Origin: an uncultured Candidatus Hydrogenedens sp.
Lineage (GTDB): Bacteria; Myxococcota; UBA4151
Reading direction: 5' to 3'
NCBI GenBank assembly: GCA_902574205.1
Contig: CACGMS010000009.1
Coordinates: 1 to 44,459, forward strand
Length of the DNA stretch: 44,459 nt
Under the pieces are notes generated by a model, which saw only the letters and a list, made by a program, of their open reading frames with translations, made no database searches and was not told the DNA's origin. The position numbers and the translations under genes are program-made. Each line of letters starts with the position of its first letter. The first letter of the stretch is position 1. This document shows positions 15,000-24,708 of this stretch, piece after piece.

Positions 15000-15293
15000 A
15001 TGTCTGCGGCCGGTCAACTCGCGGCCCTGTTGGTTAAAGAAGAAGCCGCCCTGCGTCGTGGTGACGCAGAGGCGGTCTTTCTTTTGGCGGGTGAAAAAGA
15101 AGCCTTAATCATAGCTTTGCGCGATGATCCTCCGTCTGAGGATGTACTGAGCGAGCTGATCGCGAAGAATCGCACCAATGGCATGCTGGCGCGCAGCGGC
15201 TTAGCGTTACTCAATCAAGTCCTGGGAAATCCCAGTTCCTATGGGCAAGATGGTCAGTCGCGCTCGGGTCAGATTTTAAGTGAGAGCGCTTAG
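15000..15293 (+). CDS. flgN: FlgN-like flagellar export chaperone
   Basis: Small helical protein LLVKEEAALRRGDAEAVFLLAGEKEALI between flgM and flgK. Confidence 0.75.
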   Translation: MSAAGQLAALLVKEEAALRRGDAEAVFLLAGEKEALIIALRDDPPSEDVLSELIAKNRTNGMLARSGLALLNQVLGNPSSYGQDGQSRSGQILSESA

Positions 15294-17696: not shown

Positions 17697-17972
17697 ATGC
17701 TCACTCTTAGTCGCCGAGAAGGCCACGCAATCCGTATCGGTGATTCAATTCGAATCGTCGTTTCCGAGATTCGTGGTAATACGGTGCGCATCGGTATTGA
17801 AGCACCAAGAGAGTTGCAGGTTTTTCGTGAAGAGTTATGGCTGAAGATTCAAGAGGAGAACCGTGCAGCTGCTGAAGGACCTGACCGCGAAGGGCTTGAT
17901 GCCTTCTTGGATACTTTCAGCATAAGCAGCGCAGACGATGATCATGGCAGAAGCGGAACCGAAGATGAGTGA
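17697..17972 (+). CDS. csrA: RNA-binding translational regulator CsrA with acidic C-terminal extension
   Basis: MLTLSRREGHAIRIGDSIRIVVSEIRGNTVRIGIEAPRELQVFREEL. Confidence 0.97.
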   Translation: MLTLSRREGHAIRIGDSIRIVVSEIRGNTVRIGIEAPRELQVFREELWLKIQEENRAAAEGPDREGLDAFLDTFSISSADDDHGRSGTEDE

Positions 17973-18411
17973 AACTCTTTGCTTTACCAATAATCGGTTG
18001 GGCGAAATTGAGGTTGAGTCCGATGCAATTCTGAATTTTCCTGCCGGGATTTTAGGTTTTTCCGAATGTCGTCGATTCGCTCTTTTGCCTCATCGACCAG
18101 GGACTCCATTCTTTTGGTTGGTACCGGTTGATCGGCAAGATATTGCTTTTGTGGTGGTCAATCCTGAGAACTTCTTCCCTGATTATTGCCCGAACCTGAC
18201 TCAGGACCAGTTGGCACCGTTAGCACTCGAACCGAATCAGGACCACAGCTTAGGTATGCTCGTTGTGGTCAGCTTTCGTGAAGGCAAACCCACAGCCAAT
18301 CTAAGAGCGCCATTAATTTTGGATTTACCCCACAGAAGAGCGGTGCAAGCGGTTCAAATCGGCCGTGAATTCGAGACACAAGCACCGCTTTTTCAGGCAT
18401 CTAGCAAATAA
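17965..18411 (+). CDS. fliW: Flagellar assembly factor FliW (CsrA antagonist)
   Basis: FPAGILGFSECRRFALLPH...FFWLVPVDRQDIAFVVVNP; ATG at 17965 overlaps the csrA 3' end. Confidence 0.95.
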   Translation: MSETLCFTNNRLGEIEVESDAILNFPAGILGFSECRRFALLPHRPGTPFFWLVPVDRQDIAFVVVNPENFFPDYCPNLTQDQLAPLALEPNQDHSLGMLVVVSFREGKPTANLRAPLILDLPHRRAVQAVQIGREFETQAPLFQASSK

Positions 18412-18460: not shown

Positions 18461-18480
18461 GGAAGGCAAGGATGCTTTCC
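18461..18480 (+). promoter_or_regulatory. Candidate CsrA-binding hairpin in flagellin-1 leader
   Basis: GGAAGGC-AAGGAT-GCTTTCC: 7-bp stem (one G.U), hexaloop with GGA. Confidence 0.6.
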
Positions 18481-18484
18481 AGGC

Positions 18485-18498
18485 GGACACGGATGTCC
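18485..18498 (+). promoter_or_regulatory. Second candidate CsrA-binding hairpin in flagellin-1 leader
   Basis: GGACA-CGGA-TGTCC; contains ACACGGATGT, which fits ACANGGANGU. Confidence 0.6.
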
Positions 18499-18512
18499 AT
18501 GGAGCCAACCCA

Positions 18513-19343
18513 ATGTCTTTAGTCGTCCACCATAATGTGGCGGCGCGCTTTGCCCGTTTGCACCTGGATAGAGCCCAGGAAGCGATTCAAAGCAGCACCG
18601 ATCGAATGAGCTCGGGATACCGGCTCAATCGAGCAGCAGACGACACCACTGCCTTTGCTATGTCCATGCGCTTTGGTTCCGATTTGGTCGGGCTTGAAAC
18701 CGTCAATCGCAACGCTCGAAATGGGATGAACTTGATTGGTGCTATGGAAAGCACCAGCGGCGAGATCCTTCGTGTACTCAATCGGATGCGAGAGCTTGCG
18801 ACCAAGAATGCGACGGAGACCATGACGCCTACGGATCGCACTGAGGCGCAGATTGAATTTGTGGCGTTGCAGGATGAAATTCAGCGTTTAGCTCAAACAA
18901 CGCACATGAACCGAGTACAGGGGCTGGCAGTCTCCGACACGATGACCTTCCAGGTTGGTGCGGGCGGCGGCGCCGCTAACCAAGTGGTCTTGTCGTTGCG
19001 CTCGATGACGTTAAACGCTCTTTCTATTGGACCGGGTAACGCAGACATCAATCTCATGAGTCACGCTCAAGACGCCTTGAACAAGATTGACACGGCGTTG
19101 TCTCGTTTGAATACTCGTCGTTCGCAGATGGCCGCAACGTTTACACAACTCAATGCCGCATTTGAAGTGACTGCTGGTGATCGCGAGGCATTGCTCAATA
19201 CATTAAACGTGATTCGTGATACGGATTATGCGGTGGAGTCGACCAACTTGGCGCAAAATCAAATCCGATCTCAGGCTGCCGTGAGCATTTTGAGTCAAGC
19301 CAACACGATTCCGCAGCTCGCGCTGCAGTTGTTGCAGGCATAG
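18513..19343 (+). CDS. Divergent flagellin (flagellin 1)
   Basis: MSLVVHHNVAARFARLHLDRAQEAIQSSTDRMSSGYRLNRAADDTTAFAMSM; C-terminal SQAAVSILSQANTIPQLALQLLQA; SD GGAG at 18501-18504 supports ATG 18513 over the track's TTG at 18450. Confidence 0.92.
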   Translation: MSLVVHHNVAARFARLHLDRAQEAIQSSTDRMSSGYRLNRAADDTTAFAMSMRFGSDLVGLETVNRNARNGMNLIGAMESTSGEILRVLNRMRELATKNATETMTPTDRTEAQIEFVALQDEIQRLAQTTHMNRVQGLAVSDTMTFQVGAGGGAANQVVLSLRSMTLNALSIGPGNADINLMSHAQDALNKIDTALSRLNTRRSQMAATFTQLNAAFEVTAGDREALLNTLNVIRDTDYAVESTNLAQNQIRSQAAVSILSQANTIPQLALQLLQA

Positions 19344-19353
19344 GGAGGCGATC

Positions 19354-20694
19354 ATGGCAGGCTTTAGCGTAGGTGGATTGGCAACGGGTCTTGATACCAA
19401 GACGATGATTGCTCAGTTGCTTCAAGTCGAGCGATCAGCGCAGATTGGCCCAAAGCGGCGTAAAGCTGAGGCGGATCGGCGCGGGGCGGCTATGAATGAT
19501 CTGATCAATCTGATGAAGGAAGTCCGTACCGCAGCTGAAGGAGTGGACACGGATACGGAAGCAGCAGCCGTAACAGCGACCAGTTCTGACACTGAAAAGT
19601 TCACGGTAAGCGGTGACGGCAACGCGTTGCCCGGAAATTACCAGTTAGCCATCGGCAGCCTAGCAAAGTCTCAAAAAGATATGGGCACGCTCGGTACGAG
19701 TCTTACCGATTCGGTGCAGGAAGGAACCTACTCCATACAAGTAGAGGGTGAGGATGCGGTCGATTTTGTGGTGGATGGAAACAACAACACGATTTCGGGT
19801 TTGATTACTGCTATTAACTCGTCCGACGCTAAGGTGACCGCCTCGACAATTTTCAATGGGACGAACTATACCCTCGTGCTTACGGCTGAAGAAAGCGGCA
19901 AGAATGTTGTCTACAGCGCTCGAGACGGAGCAGACTGGACTGATCTCGACGGTAATAAAAACGGCATTAGCACTTATCAACTAGCTGAAGATGCAAGTTT
20001 TATGATCGATGGGATCGCAATTACCAGCGATTCGAATGAGATCACTGATGCGGTGACTGGACTGACGATCAATCTGCTTGAAACTACGGAGTTTGATAAA
20101 GACGGGCCCACTGAATTCATAAACCTGGATGTTGCAGCTGACAGTACCAAGACGACAGATAACGTGGAGGCTCTCACTTCAGCAATTGGTAAAGTACTCT
20201 CAAATCTTAAAGATACGATGTCATCCAGTGAAGACAGCGCGGGCGTTCTTGCCTTTGATTCAACGGCGAGAATGCTGCGCGGATCAATTTCGGATGCTTT
20301 GATCAATCGCCAAACAGGCAACGACGGAACCTACAATTCGTTGACCATGATCGGAATCGGTCAGGATCGTTATGGGAACATATCCTTTGATAAGGATGAG
20401 TTTGCTGAAGCGCTTGCTAAAGACAAAGATGGCGTGATGAAGCTCATCACGGGTGAAGATGGGTTAGCCGATCGATTCAAAGATATGGCCGATGATTATA
20501 CCTTTTCGGAAGGTTTCCTCACGATTCGAAAGACGATGTACACCGATCGCTCAAGCGATATTTCAAAGGCGATTGATCGCATGGAGGAGCGTGTTCAAGC
20601 TTATGGCGACCGCCTCAAGCGTCAATTCGCTAAACTTGAGCAGATGGTGTCAGGTCTCAATCAACAAAGCTCTGCTTTGAGTAATCTTCGCTAG
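19354..20694 (+). CDS. fliD: Flagellar filament cap protein FliD
   Basis: SVGGLATGLDTKTMIAQLLQVERSAQIGPKRRKAE; C-terminal RLKRQFAKLEQMVSGLNQQSSALSNL. Confidence 0.95.
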   Translation: MAGFSVGGLATGLDTKTMIAQLLQVERSAQIGPKRRKAEADRRGAAMNDLINLMKEVRTAAEGVDTDTEAAAVTATSSDTEKFTVSGDGNALPGNYQLAIGSLAKSQKDMGTLGTSLTDSVQEGTYSIQVEGEDAVDFVVDGNNNTISGLITAINSSDAKVTASTIFNGTNYTLVLTAEESGKNVVYSARDGADWTDLDGNKNGISTYQLAEDASFMIDGIAITSDSNEITDAVTGLTINLLETTEFDKDGPTEFINLDVAADSTKTTDNVEALTSAIGKVLSNLKDTMSSSEDSAGVLAFDSTARMLRGSISDALINRQTGNDGTYNSLTMIGIGQDRYGNISFDKDEFAEALAKDKDGVMKLITGEDGLADRFKDMADDYTFSEGFLTIRKTMYTDRSSDISKAIDRMEERVQAYGDRLKRQFAKLEQMVSGLNQQSSALSNLR

Positions 20695-20705
20695 GAGAGC
20701 ATTCG

Positions 20706-21110
20706 ATGATCCCTGCTAAACGAAATCCATATGCGAGCGCTCAGGTCAACTCGGCAAGTCCAGAACAAATTTTGGTCTTACTTTATGATGCTGCGCTACG
20801 GGACATCAAAGAGGCGATAGCAGCAATCAATGCTGGAGATCGCTCGCGCAAAGCCAAGGCGCTGGACCACGCGGTGAAGGTAGTCACTGAGTTGGCAAAC
20901 AGTCTGCGCCCAGAGAAAGCGCCTGAAATTGCTGAGAACCTATCGAATTTATATGACTTTATGATCGATCGGATGATTCGATCGAATGCACAGAATGAAG
21001 ATTTGGATTTGCAGGTGGTTTACAACCTTTTAGGCGAGCTTCGTGCTGCCTGGGTCGAAGCCATTCGCATTAATAGGACACAACGTAACCACGGGGCAGC
21101 AGGAGCTTAG
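20706..21110 (+). CDS. fliS: Flagellin export chaperone FliS
   Basis: NPYASAQVNSASPEQILVLLYDAALRDIKEAI. Confidence 0.95.
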   Translation: MIPAKRNPYASAQVNSASPEQILVLLYDAALRDIKEAIAAINAGDRSRKAKALDHAVKVVTELANSLRPEKAPEIAENLSNLYDFMIDRMIRSNAQNEDLDLQVVYNLLGELRAAWVEAIRINRTQRNHGAAGA

Positions 21111-21150
21111 CCCGCCCAGAAAACGCCGAGCAAGGATGCGACGCGTAGAC

Positions 21151-21189
21151 CCATCAAGGAGGATAATGGTCATGCACAACAGCACATAG
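21151..21189 (+). promoter_or_regulatory. Orphan flagellin-type SD/start followed by 7-codon ORF (MVMHNST*)
   Basis: CCATCAAGGAGGATA (21151-21165) is identical to the flagellin-3 SD block at 22666-22680; ATG at 21166, stop TAG 21187-21189. Confidence 0.55.
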
Positions 21190-21306
21190 GGACTTACTCA
21201 TCCCAAGCCCAACCCAGGTAGAGGGCTTCTAAACACCGCCTGGACAACCTTTGTTTCGTAATGCCTCAGTGGACCAATCTTGGACCGAACAGGCAGAATT
21301 TACTCT

Positions 21307-21324
21307 GAGCTCAGGGACGAGCTC
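21307..21324 (+). promoter_or_regulatory. Candidate CsrA-binding hairpin in flagellin-2 leader
   Basis: GAGCTC-AGGGAC-GAGCTC, 6-bp stem, hexaloop with GGA. Confidence 0.5.
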
Positions 21325-21332
21325 TTTCAACT

Positions 21333-21358
21333 CGGCGGTCTTTGGAAAGAGTCCGCCG
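21333..21358 (+). promoter_or_regulatory. Second hairpin in flagellin-2 leader with GGA near the apex
   Basis: CGGCGG / CCGCCG outer stem; inner TCTT / AAGA with apical TGGA. Confidence 0.5.
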
Positions 21359-21382
21359 GCCATGTCAATCAAGGAGGATACC

Positions 21383-22210
21383 ATGGCCATCACTGTACGC
21401 AGTAACCCGCAATCGATTTTCTCTCAAACCCGACTGACGCGCACCAGCCGCGCTTTGGAAAAGACGTTCAATCGCCTCTCTAGTGGCAGTCGAATCAACA
21501 CCGCAGCCGATGATGCTGCAGGGTTGGCTATTTCGACCCGCCTTGAGCACCGCATTAAAGGTCAAGGCGCAGCCAAGCAAAATGCTCAAGAGGGTATTAG
21601 TTTCATTCAAACCCTTGAGGGCGGTGTCGAGCAGATTCTCGATATGTTGCACCGTCTACGCGAACTCGGTGTTCGTGCAGCTAATGAAACCTTAACGAAT
21701 ACGGATCGAGATGCTTTGGATCTCGAATTCCAGCAGTTGTTGACCGAGGTCGACCGTGTCGGTTTGGCAACGACTTTCAACGGTGGTCCCGATTTGCAGG
21801 GTTCACTGACCATGACCTTCCAGGTTGGTTTTTCCAATACCACCAATGATCGTGTGTCGTTGACTCAAACTTCGGGTCTTTCGCTAGACGCGTTGAACAT
21901 TATTGGTGCGGATGTCCAATCGATTGGTAACGCAGCAAACGCTTTAGGTAACATTAGTTTGGCGCTGAGCCACTTGAATGCCTACCGCTCCCGACTCGGC
22001 GCAACTCAGAACCGGCTCGAGCGAGCCATTTCAAACCTTGAAGCTGATATCGAAAACGCAACGGCGGCAAACAGTCGAATTCGCGATGTCGACTTTGCCG
22101 AAGAGACCAGTAAGCTGACGAGACTTCAAATTCTAAGTCAAAGCGGAACAGCTGTACTGACACAAGCCAACGCCATGCCGCAGGCAGCGCTCGCCTTACT
22201 GGGCGGATGA
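21383..22210 (+). CDS. fliC: Flagellin 2 (short, D0/D1 only)
   Basis: MAITVRSNPQSIFSQTRLTRTSRALEKTFNRLSSGSRINTAADDAAGLAISTRLEHRIKG; ATG 21383 has SD AAGGAGG; track start 21251 is upstream. Confidence 0.96.
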   Translation: MAITVRSNPQSIFSQTRLTRTSRALEKTFNRLSSGSRINTAADDAAGLAISTRLEHRIKGQGAAKQNAQEGISFIQTLEGGVEQILDMLHRLRELGVRAANETLTNTDRDALDLEFQQLLTEVDRVGLATTFNGGPDLQGSLTMTFQVGFSNTTNDRVSLTQTSGLSLDALNIIGADVQSIGNAANALGNISLALSHLNAYRSRLGATQNRLERAISNLEADIENATAANSRIRDVDFAEETSKLTRLQILSQSGTAVLTQANAMPQAALALLGG

Positions 22211-22566
22211 TCGGTGGGCTTATTATGAACAAAATAACGATCGCAAATAATCGAGGATCACCTGGGCGTGCACCACCTGCACGTAGCCGAGGACCAACCA
22301 ACTACACTGAGTTTGTACGCCATTGGTTCTGGCATCTAGGTCGACGAAGCAAACGAACTTGGGGACGCCATCCATCGCGGGCCGGTCCCGTAAGCACCCG
22401 AGTGAGAACGCAACGTCAAAAAGCTCACTACTGGATTCCCCCGGAGCTTGCCGAAGCGGTGAATGCTCCGACCATCAGGAACCGTCATGGGCCGAACGCA
22501 ACCAGGGATGGGCCGACTTCAGGTCGAGCCCCACCCCGATCAACGGGCCCTCCTTAGCTGGAGGGA

Positions 22567-22581
22567 TTCCCTTGGAGGGAA
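22567..22581 (+). promoter_or_regulatory. GGA-loop hairpin in flagellin-3 leader
   Basis: TTCCC-TTGGA-GGGAA. Confidence 0.4.
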
Positions 22582-22614
22582 ACGGAAGGAAGAAGAGTTA
22601 ATCGCTAAATTTTG

Positions 22615-22630
22615 GGGACAAGGAAGTCCC
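22615..22630 (+). promoter_or_regulatory. Candidate CsrA-binding hairpin in flagellin-3 leader
   Basis: GGGAC-AAGGAA-GTCCC; contains ACAAGGAAGT, which fits ACANGGANGU. Confidence 0.65.
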
Positions 22631-22637
22631 TATCGCC

Positions 22638-22660
22638 GGCTGATGAACCATTCATCAGCC
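22638..22660 (+). promoter_or_regulatory. Perfect 10-bp hairpin just upstream of flagellin-3 SD
   Basis: GGCTGATGAA-CCA-TTCATCAGCC. Confidence 0.65.
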
Positions 22661-22682
22661 ACTAGCCATCAAGGAGGATATT

Positions 22683-23519
22683 ATGGCTATTGTAGTTAGA
22701 AGTAATCCGCAGTCGGTCTTTGCTCAAGTTCGATTGAATCGTAACTCAAACGCATTGCAAGATACGTTTCAAAAGCTCTCGACGGGCTCGCGTATCAACA
22801 ACGCAGGCGATGATGCCGCTGGGCTCGCAGTCTCGACACAGCTCGAGCACCGAATCCGTGGCCAGTCTGCTGCGAAGCAAAATGCGCTCGAAGGCATCAG
22901 CATGATCCAAACTGCTGAAGGCGGCGTCGAGCAGGTTCGGTCTATGCTCGATCGAATGCGTGAACTCGCTGTCCGATCCAGTAACGAAACTCTGAGTGCG
23001 TCGGATCGCTCGAATGCTCATCTCGAGTTTGTACAACTCAAGAATGAGATCACTCGAATCGGAAGTACCACATCGTACAACGGAAACAGCTTGTTGAGCA
23101 TCACGTCAGTTTTGACCTTTCAGGTCGGATTTAACGATAATGCCAATGATCGTATCACTGCGACCCTCACGGGTAACTTCAGGGTCAGTGCAGCGAATAG
23201 TATCATCGCTTTGACCAATGCTGAGATTGATACGGCTGCTTCAGCTCAAGGTGCGCTCGATCTGATCGATAATGCCCTGAGTCGGTTGAATGCCTACCGA
23301 TCAAAACTCGGGTCGGTACAGAATCGATTGGAGCGTGCGATCTCGAATCTTGAAGCAGATATTGAGAACGCTACGGCTTCGAATAGTCGAATTCGAGATG
23401 TGGATTTTGCGGAGGAGACATCCAAGATGACTCGTTTGCAGATCCTCATGCAAAGCGGCACGGCTGTGCTCACGCAAGCCAATGCCAGCCCTCAAGCCGC
23501 GTTGTCCCTTCTCGGGTAA
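22683..23519 (+). CDS. fliC: Flagellin 3 (short, D0/D1 only)
   Basis: MAIVVRSNPQSVFAQVRLNRNSNALQDTFQKLSTGSRINNAGDDAAGLAVSTQLEHRI; SD AAGGAGG. Confidence 0.96.
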   Translation: MAIVVRSNPQSVFAQVRLNRNSNALQDTFQKLSTGSRINNAGDDAAGLAVSTQLEHRIRGQSAAKQNALEGISMIQTAEGGVEQVRSMLDRMRELAVRSSNETLSASDRSNAHLEFVQLKNEITRIGSTTSYNGNSLLSITSVLTFQVGFNDNANDRITATLTGNFRVSAANSIIALTNAEIDTAASAQGALDLIDNALSRLNAYRSKLGSVQNRLERAISNLEADIENATASNSRIRDVDFAEETSKMTRLQILMQSGTAVLTQANASPQAALSLLG

Positions 23520-23541
23520 CGCAGCAAGCGGGATCAGCCAT

Positions 23542-23587
23542 GAGGGTGCCTAGGGCTTCGGCCCTGGGCGCTCTCTTGGTTTTTTAA
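23542..23587 (+). terminator. Rho-independent terminator after flagellin 3
   Basis: GAGGGTGCCTAGGGC-TTCG-GCCCTGGGCGCTCTC (15-bp stem with G.U pairs, UUCG loop) then TTGGTTTTTT. Confidence 0.9.
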
Positions 23588-23830
23588 TGTGATGGAATTT
23601 GAATAGGTTCAATGTGTATCGGAGCAATTCGGCCGTCTTTTTAGGACGTTGTCTTGACTTTGCTTGTGATGCCCCTCACACTCTTCCTGAAGATCCAACT
23701 GTCCCCAGGCGACTTAGGAGGTATTTTTCGATCACGATTTAGCGCTGGCGAGCGCTCTTTCAAGCCGGGCATACGCATCTGTTGAGCTTCAGCCCTATGG
23801 ATCCTTGAAGACAACGAAACCATACAGAAC

Positions 23831-23851
23831 GCTCTCAAAGGATATGAGAGC
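23831..23851 (+). promoter_or_regulatory. Candidate CsrA-binding hairpin in flagellin-4 leader
   Basis: GCTCTCA-AAGGATA-TGAGAGC, 7-bp perfect stem, GGA in heptaloop. Confidence 0.65.
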
Positions 23852-23871
23852 AAGCCATCCAAGGAGGAATC

Positions 23872-24708
23872 ATGGCACTTGTAGTACGTAGTAACGTTCA
23901 GTCTGTTTTCGCTCAGAATCGCTTGAACGCAAGCCAGTCTCAGTTTGAAAACTCCCTCGCAAAGTTAGCTTCTGGTAGCCGCATCAATAAGGCTGCGGAT
24001 GACGCTGCTGGTCTAGCCGTTTCGACTACGCTCGAACACCGCATTAAGGCTCAGTCGGCTGCACGCCAGAACGCCCAAGAAGGCATCAGCCTCATCCAAA
24101 CCGCTGAAGGTGGCGTGGAGCAGGTTCGTTCGATGCTCGATCGTATGCGTGAACTCGCCGTTCGCTCGAGTAACGAAACGCTCAGCGCTTCAGATCGCTC
24201 CAACGCACACTTGGAATTTGATCAACTCAAAGATGAGATTGTTCGAATTTCAACGTCGACTTCCTACAACGGAAAGACGTTGTTGAATGCAAGTCTCATT
24301 GCCACATTCCAAGTGGGTCAGGATGATCAAGCGTCTAATCGTATTGAAGTGACGGTAACCGGTGACTTTTCGGTTAGTGGCGCGAACAGCATTATCAAGT
24401 TGACCAAAGCTGAAGTTGATACTGCCGCGTCGGCGCAGGCCGCACTTGATCTGATTGATAACGCGTTGAGTCGAGTCAACACGTATCGCTCGAAGCTGGG
24501 TTCGACTCAGAATCGACTTGAGCGTGCGATCTCGAACCTTGACGCTGATATCGAAAACGCAACCGCTGCAAACAGCCGCATCCGAGACGTCGATTTCGCG
24601 TCCGAAACGGCAGCGTTCACTCGGTCGCAGATCCTTATCCAGTCGGGTACAGCGATTTTGGCTCAGGCGAACAGTTCGCCGCAGGCTGCGCTGTCCTTGC
24701 TCGGTTAA
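23872..24708 (+). CDS. fliC: Flagellin 4 (short, D0/D1 only)
   Basis: MALVVRSNVQSVFAQNRLNASQSQFENSLAKLASGSRINKAADDAAGLAVSTTLEHRI; SD AAGGAGG. Confidence 0.96.
   Translation: MALVVRSNVQSVFAQNRLNASQSQFENSLAKLASGSRINKAADDAAGLAVSTTLEHRIKAQSAARQNAQEGISLIQTAEGGVEQVRSMLDRMRELAVRSSNETLSASDRSNAHLEFDQLKDEIVRISTSTSYNGKTLLNASLIATFQVGQDDQASNRIEVTVTGDFSVSGANSIIKLTKAEVDTAASAQAALDLIDNALSRVNTYRSKLGSTQNRLERAISNLDADIENATAANSRIRDVDFASETAAFTRSQILIQSGTAILAQANSSPQAALSLLG

Follow-up and report, generated by a model that had tools for sequence, protein, structure and literature searches.

Feedback control of flagellin synthesis by CsrA and FliW has been described in several flagellated bacteria, three of which come closest to the locus analyzed here. 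In C. jejuni, the flaA leader carries an ANGGA motif in both of its stem-loops, the second of which covers the ribosome-binding site, and mutating either stem-loop raises expression; CsrA binds the flaA, flaB and other flagellar leaders and is antagonised by FliW (PMC4894983). In B. subtilis, the hag leader has two CsrA sites, one of them over the Shine–Dalgarno sequence (SD), and regulation involves FliW partner switching (PMC7652899). Bridging by a single CsrA dimer has been published for paired sites lying 10-63 nt apart, with an optimum above 18 nt (PMC7652899). In T. denticola, CsrA sites were reported near the SD of both flaB1 and flaB2, and csrA-fliW lies within the flagellar cluster (PMC9481697).

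The locus described below resembles C. jejuni flaA in its two GGA stem-loops, the compensatory changes found in relatives and the presence of FliW, and differs in that flaA is the main high-affinity target in C. jejuni and flaB a weaker one, whereas here five paralogs each have two GGA sites (PMC4894983). With B. subtilis it shares the pair of sites and the FliW partner, although that organism has a single flagellin gene (PMC7652899), and with T. denticola the existence of several flagellins, although the passages of the T. denticola report dealing with these genes mention sites only and describe neither a two-hairpin layout nor covariation (PMC9481697). The mechanism and the two-hairpin layout are already known; what is new is the lineage, a set of five paralogs that each have two sites, the contrast within one phylum, and an orphan leader.

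The window, the whole analyzed stretch of 44,459 nucleotides, is a single contig from an assembly of 2.0 Mb (60% complete); it contains, in this order, flgK, flgL, csrA, fliW, fla1 (18513), fliD, fliS, fla2 (21383), fla3 (22683) and fla4 (23872); csrA, fliW, the flagellin genes and all leader elements described below are on the forward strand. The csrA gene (17697-17972, 91 aa; Pfam PF02599, E 9.6e-22) is the single match across the assembly, in which no second CsrA gene was found, and its end is overlapped by 35 nt by the start of fliW (17938-18411; Pfam PF02623, E 1.9e-28), the product of which matches FliW of 5dmb. Both members of the regulatory pair are therefore encoded. Residues 1-55 of the CsrA protein align with solved CsrA, R44 being kept, and N55, on which binding of FliW depends in other species (PMC13407953), is present together with a C-terminal extension both here and in relatives. 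As originally predicted, csrA-fliW lies about 0.5 kb upstream of the first flagellin gene (0.54 kb from the end of csrA to fla1), and the four downstream genes are flagellins according to Pfam: fla1 (18513-19343; Flagellin_N and Flagellin_C), fla2 (21383-22210), whose start, the ATG at 21383, is internal to a longer mechanical ORF, fla3 (22683-23519) and fla4 (23872-24708). The fifth flagellin of the genome is encoded on a different contig (G000:C3, hereafter C3). For comparison, the class comprises three genomes in the collection, namely this one (G000), its congener (G001) and a further member of the family (G002). A scan of genome contigs with FliW returned one distant Niallia locus only, at which the hag pattern search gave no match, hence no positive control was available there.

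The six hairpins named in the original prediction are all present and all occur in minimum-free-energy folds. Upstream of fla1, two hairpins identical in the congener are predicted to fold at 18461-18480 (GGAAGGC-AAGGAT-GCTTTCC, GGA at -43) and 18485-18498 (GGACA-CGGA-TGTCC, GGA at -22); the latter lies directly 5' of the SD (TGGAG, 18500-18504) and, in contrast to the second hairpin of C. jejuni flaA, not over it. In the fla2 leader, hairpin 2 (21334-21357; GGCGG...TCTT-TGGA-AAGA...CCGCC, predicted fold, GGA at -39) is kept at the same place in the congener as GGTGACAGC-AAGGAC-GCAGTCACC. Hairpin 1 of this leader (21307-21324; GAGCTC-AGGGAC-GAGCTC, predicted fold) differs in this respect: its loop in the congener reads AUGUC and contains no GGA, and we rejected it as a conserved CsrA site. 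The predicted upstream hairpins of fla3 (22615-22630; GGGAC-AAGGAA-GTCCC, GGA at -61) and fla4 (23831-23851; GCTCTCA-AAGGATA-TGAGAGC, GGA at -32) are both conserved in the congener. A further predicted hairpin, free of GGA, is interposed in the fla3 leader (22638-22660; GGCTGATGAA / TTCATCAGCC), and its sequence is changed in the congener with the pairing retained.

In most leaders the SD is additionally looped out by another, second hairpin. Such SD hairpins are predicted for fla2 (21358-21388; GGCCATG...AAGGAGG...CATGGCC, with the start codon in the stem), fla3 (22664-22688; AGCCAT...AAGGAGG...ATGGCT) and fla4 (23854-23876; GCCATCC-AAGGA-GG...ATGGC), so that the second GGA site sits within a loop in these three leaders; it is merely beside the SD in fla1, and an SD hairpin is absent from the leaders of fla1 and the C3 flagellin. 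The inner stems of the fla2-4 SD hairpins, ATC/GAT or TCC/GGA, are short (3 bp), and the outer stem is formed by GCCAT with the start ATGGC. Since this pairing partly encloses the SD and the start codon in fla2-4, the hairpins and SD stems might act without CsrA, as RNA thermosensors or SD-masking structures. We regard this as very improbable, as the SD core is in the loop and not in the stem, the upstream hairpin is unpaired with the SD, and the presence of GGA tracks that of CsrA in the comparison given below.

The leader hairpins are real and occur far above chance. Counting hairpins within the last 90 nt before the start codon (uninterrupted stem of 5 bp or more, with no more than one GU and at least three GC pairs, GGA in a loop of 3-8 nt), all five flagellin leaders of this genome are positive, as opposed to 8 of 181 other leaders (4.4%) drawn from the window and 400 kb of this genome (Fisher 7e-7, a value which, like the Fisher value given below, overstates independence because the leaders are related to each other). 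Dinucleotide shuffles yielded such a hairpin in 4.1%. GGA loops are accordingly commoner in these leaders than in shuffled or non-flagellin ones, as the original prediction required. In the strand-searched background, the combined motif of hairpin, purine-rich SD and ATG occurs twice per 800 kb; within the retrieved flagellar loci, strong instances fall on flagellins and on one orphan leader of another genome (G030, see below), and the three others are weak or internal. That GGA loops simply arise easily in purine-rich leaders, where SDs contain GGA by nature, is contradicted by these frequencies and by the conservation and covariation in relatives, and we give this explanation next to no weight. 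Elsewhere in the window, a weak match to the combined motif (CATGG-AGGA-CCGTG, 26 nt before the SD) precedes a 97-aa non-flagellin ORF upstream of flgK (15000-15293).

Alignment of 15 upstream hairpins, anchored on the loop, gave 86.7% paired cells, with six of six pairs altered on both sides and an invariant GGA; since paralogs and two orphan sites are among the rows, and both the choice of hairpins and their anchoring on GGA were made by eye, this count supports the structure and is not an ortholog-only test. The covariation score was 0.756, whereas shuffling gave 0.215 +/- 0.052 and sliding the structure no more than 0.23, and the SD hairpins scored 0.387 versus 0.176 when shuffled. A first model built on a MAFFT alignment (R1) had contained no pairs, the hairpins of differing lengths being misaligned, and was replaced by the loop-anchored alignments and a second model (R2). 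The expectation that stems vary while the loop GGA is kept is thus borne out by strong stem covariation.

The distance between the two GGA motifs is similarly constrained, amounting to 21-29 nt in 18 leaders. It is 21 nt in fla1, 29 nt in fla2 and 23 nt in fla4; fla3 and its ortholog, at 51 and 52 nt, reach the usual spacing (28 nt in fla3) only after discounting the GGA-free hairpin between the sites. All four distances in the window fall within the 10-63 nt published for bridging by a CsrA dimer. The strongest SD hairpins belong to another CsrA-bearing family, f4 (CAATCC-AAGGA-GGATTG, CTTCC-AAGGA-GGAAG, ACATTC-AAGGAG-GAATGT).

Across the phylum, CsrA is encoded in 7 of the 31 flagellated genomes tested, all seven of which also bear FliW, and CsrA was found in none of the FliW-less genomes among these 31. 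The GGA-loop hairpin is found in 18 of 19 flagellin leaders of the CsrA-bearing families f1 and f4, as compared to 2 of 22 in CsrA-less genomes (Fisher 1.6e-8, the leaders being treated as independent despite their relatedness). SD hairpins with 3 bp or more occur in 22 of the 27 leaders from CsrA-bearing families versus 3 of 22 from CsrA-less genomes. For G002, neither CsrA nor FliW was found in an assembly that is 69% complete; as its flagellin leaders nonetheless have such hairpins, both genes may reside in the missing part.

The CsrA-less leaders bear directly on an explanation in which the upstream hairpins serve generally to stabilise abundant flagellin mRNAs at the 5' end, the loop GGA being incidental. 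By a loose criterion, some hairpin is present in 18 of the 22 usable leaders from CsrA-less genomes, often a strong one at the same place, for example GGGCGACC-AGAC-GGTCGCCC. GGA is nevertheless found in 0 of 17 of the strongest of these hairpins, the CsrA-bearing set keeps an invariant GGA on changing stems, and stabilisation accounts for neither the fixed spacing nor the second GGA site, which makes it an unlikely account of the leaders studied here. Because CsrA-less leaders keep their hairpins mostly without GGA, a leader hairpin seems common in the phylum and GGA to accompany CsrA; this suggests an older role of the hairpins, such as mRNA stability, and CsrA control may have been superimposed on stabilisation as the ancestral function. 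Strong GGA-free hairpins upstream of the SD are seen, for instance, in the CsrA-less leaders L063, L070 and L072. A third CsrA-bearing family, f3 (L055 = G013:C6; L059 = G019:C226), encodes CsrA and FliW, yet its upstream loops mostly read AAGAA or ACGGTA instead of NGGA, indicating that the upstream site was changed or lost there with the SD hairpins remaining. G013 encodes FliW twice and CsrA once.

Taken together, the covarying GGA loops, their enrichment, the match of CsrA and FliW with retained R44 and N55, the rarity of GGA in CsrA-less leaders and the fixed spacing make control by CsrA and FliW the best reading, and they support the candidate regulon with multi-site control that had been predicted from the leaders. 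Judging from these sequences, all five flagellins, together with a nearby flagellin-like leader that lacks a flagellin gene, are very probably subject to the known feedback control of flagellum building. As the layout is the same as in flaA of C. jejuni and two-site bridging by a dimer has been published, we adopt as the likely mode of action a dual-site repression by CsrA that extends to all flagellins and is relieved by FliW. Each flagellin mRNA would offer two putative CsrA sites about 24 nt apart, one in the upstream hairpin with NGGA in the loop, the other a GGA at or beside the SD, usually in a hairpin loop. A single CsrA dimer would bridge both and block ribosome binding; FliW from the adjacent gene would remove CsrA through its N55/C-terminal region; and, by analogy with B. 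subtilis and C. jejuni, flagellin that has not been secreted would tie up FliW, leading to a joint translation shutdown of the five flagellins. Several observations count against dual-site repression, namely the f3 loops mostly lacking GGA, the 3-bp inner SD stems of fla2-4, the missing SD hairpins of fla1 and C3, the unconserved fla2 hairpin 1, and a sigma-28-like -10 element of the C3 flagellin, from a weak promoter scan, that would overlap the C3 hairpin.

Between fliS and fla2, a full two-hairpin leader of the flagellin type (21124-21189) serves a 7-codon ORF alone. It comprises a first hairpin around GCAAGGATGC (21124-21145), which is better paired in the congener, an SD hairpin (21148-21171; outer GACC / GGTC, inner ATC-AAGGAG-GAT, SD at 21156-21162) and the ORF itself (21166-21189; MVMHNST, in the congener MVMHDTS), with 24 nt between the GGA motifs. 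This site is 85% identical to the congener, compared to 55% over the next 144 nt, and provides the best match of model R2 in the window (21126-21174), R2 having partly been trained on it. A look-alike outside the R2 training set was found in G030, a genome of another family (L049:14120-14180; 32 bits, E 6.6e-4): GGGCA-AGGA-TGCCC and TTCC-AAGGAG-GGAA are followed by MLVFS-stop, about 590 nt before the first flagellin of the G030 array. Its neighbour is a class I adenylate cyclase gene and the fliS of G030 is on another contig, and we therefore rejected the idea that such an orphan always follows fliS.

A comparable arrangement exists in flaA_mini, an engineered C. jejuni transcript of leader plus 17 codons that acts as a CsrA sponge; both consist of a flagellin-type leader followed by a short reading frame, whereas flaA_mini is man-made with its own terminator and the orphan leader is natural (PMC4894983). 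No terminator was seen at the orphan leader, and the Rfam search of the window gave no match at gathering score. With two GGA hairpins and a 7-codon ORF only, the orphan leader lacks the many GGA hairpins of a CsrB/RsmZ-type sponge RNA. By analogy with the engineered construct, we tentatively raise the possibility that selection has maintained it at the start of the flagellin array as a naturally occurring CsrA decoy or sensor, one that would titrate CsrA or report its activity. Alternatively, it could be an extra leader element of fla2. It is also possible that it is the fossil of a lost flagellin copy: the G030 orphan closely resembles the leader of the G030 flagellin C247, a member of the training set, and because of this resemblance and the differing neighbours in G030, common descent of the two orphans is unproven.

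Use of this control across several paralogs had been proposed as novel, a claim that stands only for the scale, five paralogs being added here to the precedents of flaA/flaB (PMC4894983) and, from the passages on them in the T. denticola report, flaB1/flaB2 (PMC9481697). A leader pair across a flagellin array was not described in the open-licence literature searched. CsrA-FliW flagellin homeostasis is thereby extended to a deep uncultured lineage, and covariation, spacing and co-occurrence with CsrA make this more than a motif sighting. The same switch may operate on every paralog of a multi-flagellin set, so that coordinated dosage of a mixed filament becomes testable, and CsrA-less relatives that keep the hairpin without GGA offer a natural experiment on gain or loss of CsrA control within one phylum. 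To our knowledge, a flagellin-leader sponge of this kind has so far been known only as an engineered construct, and the orphan leader, if functional, would be its natural counterpart.

With respect to transcription, the scan for sigma-28 and sigma-54 promoters gave weak matches, among them one sigma-28-like site preceding fla1 hairpin 1 in both congeners. A likely intrinsic terminator (GGTGCCTAGGGCTTCGGCCCTGGGCGCTC followed by a T-rich stretch, 23540-23586) lies after fla3, and fla4 therefore probably has its own promoter. The flagellin locus of family f4 has csrA-fliW directly followed by a gene for a class I adenylate cyclase (L049:11278-13437; L052:5906-8842; L053:6378-9161).
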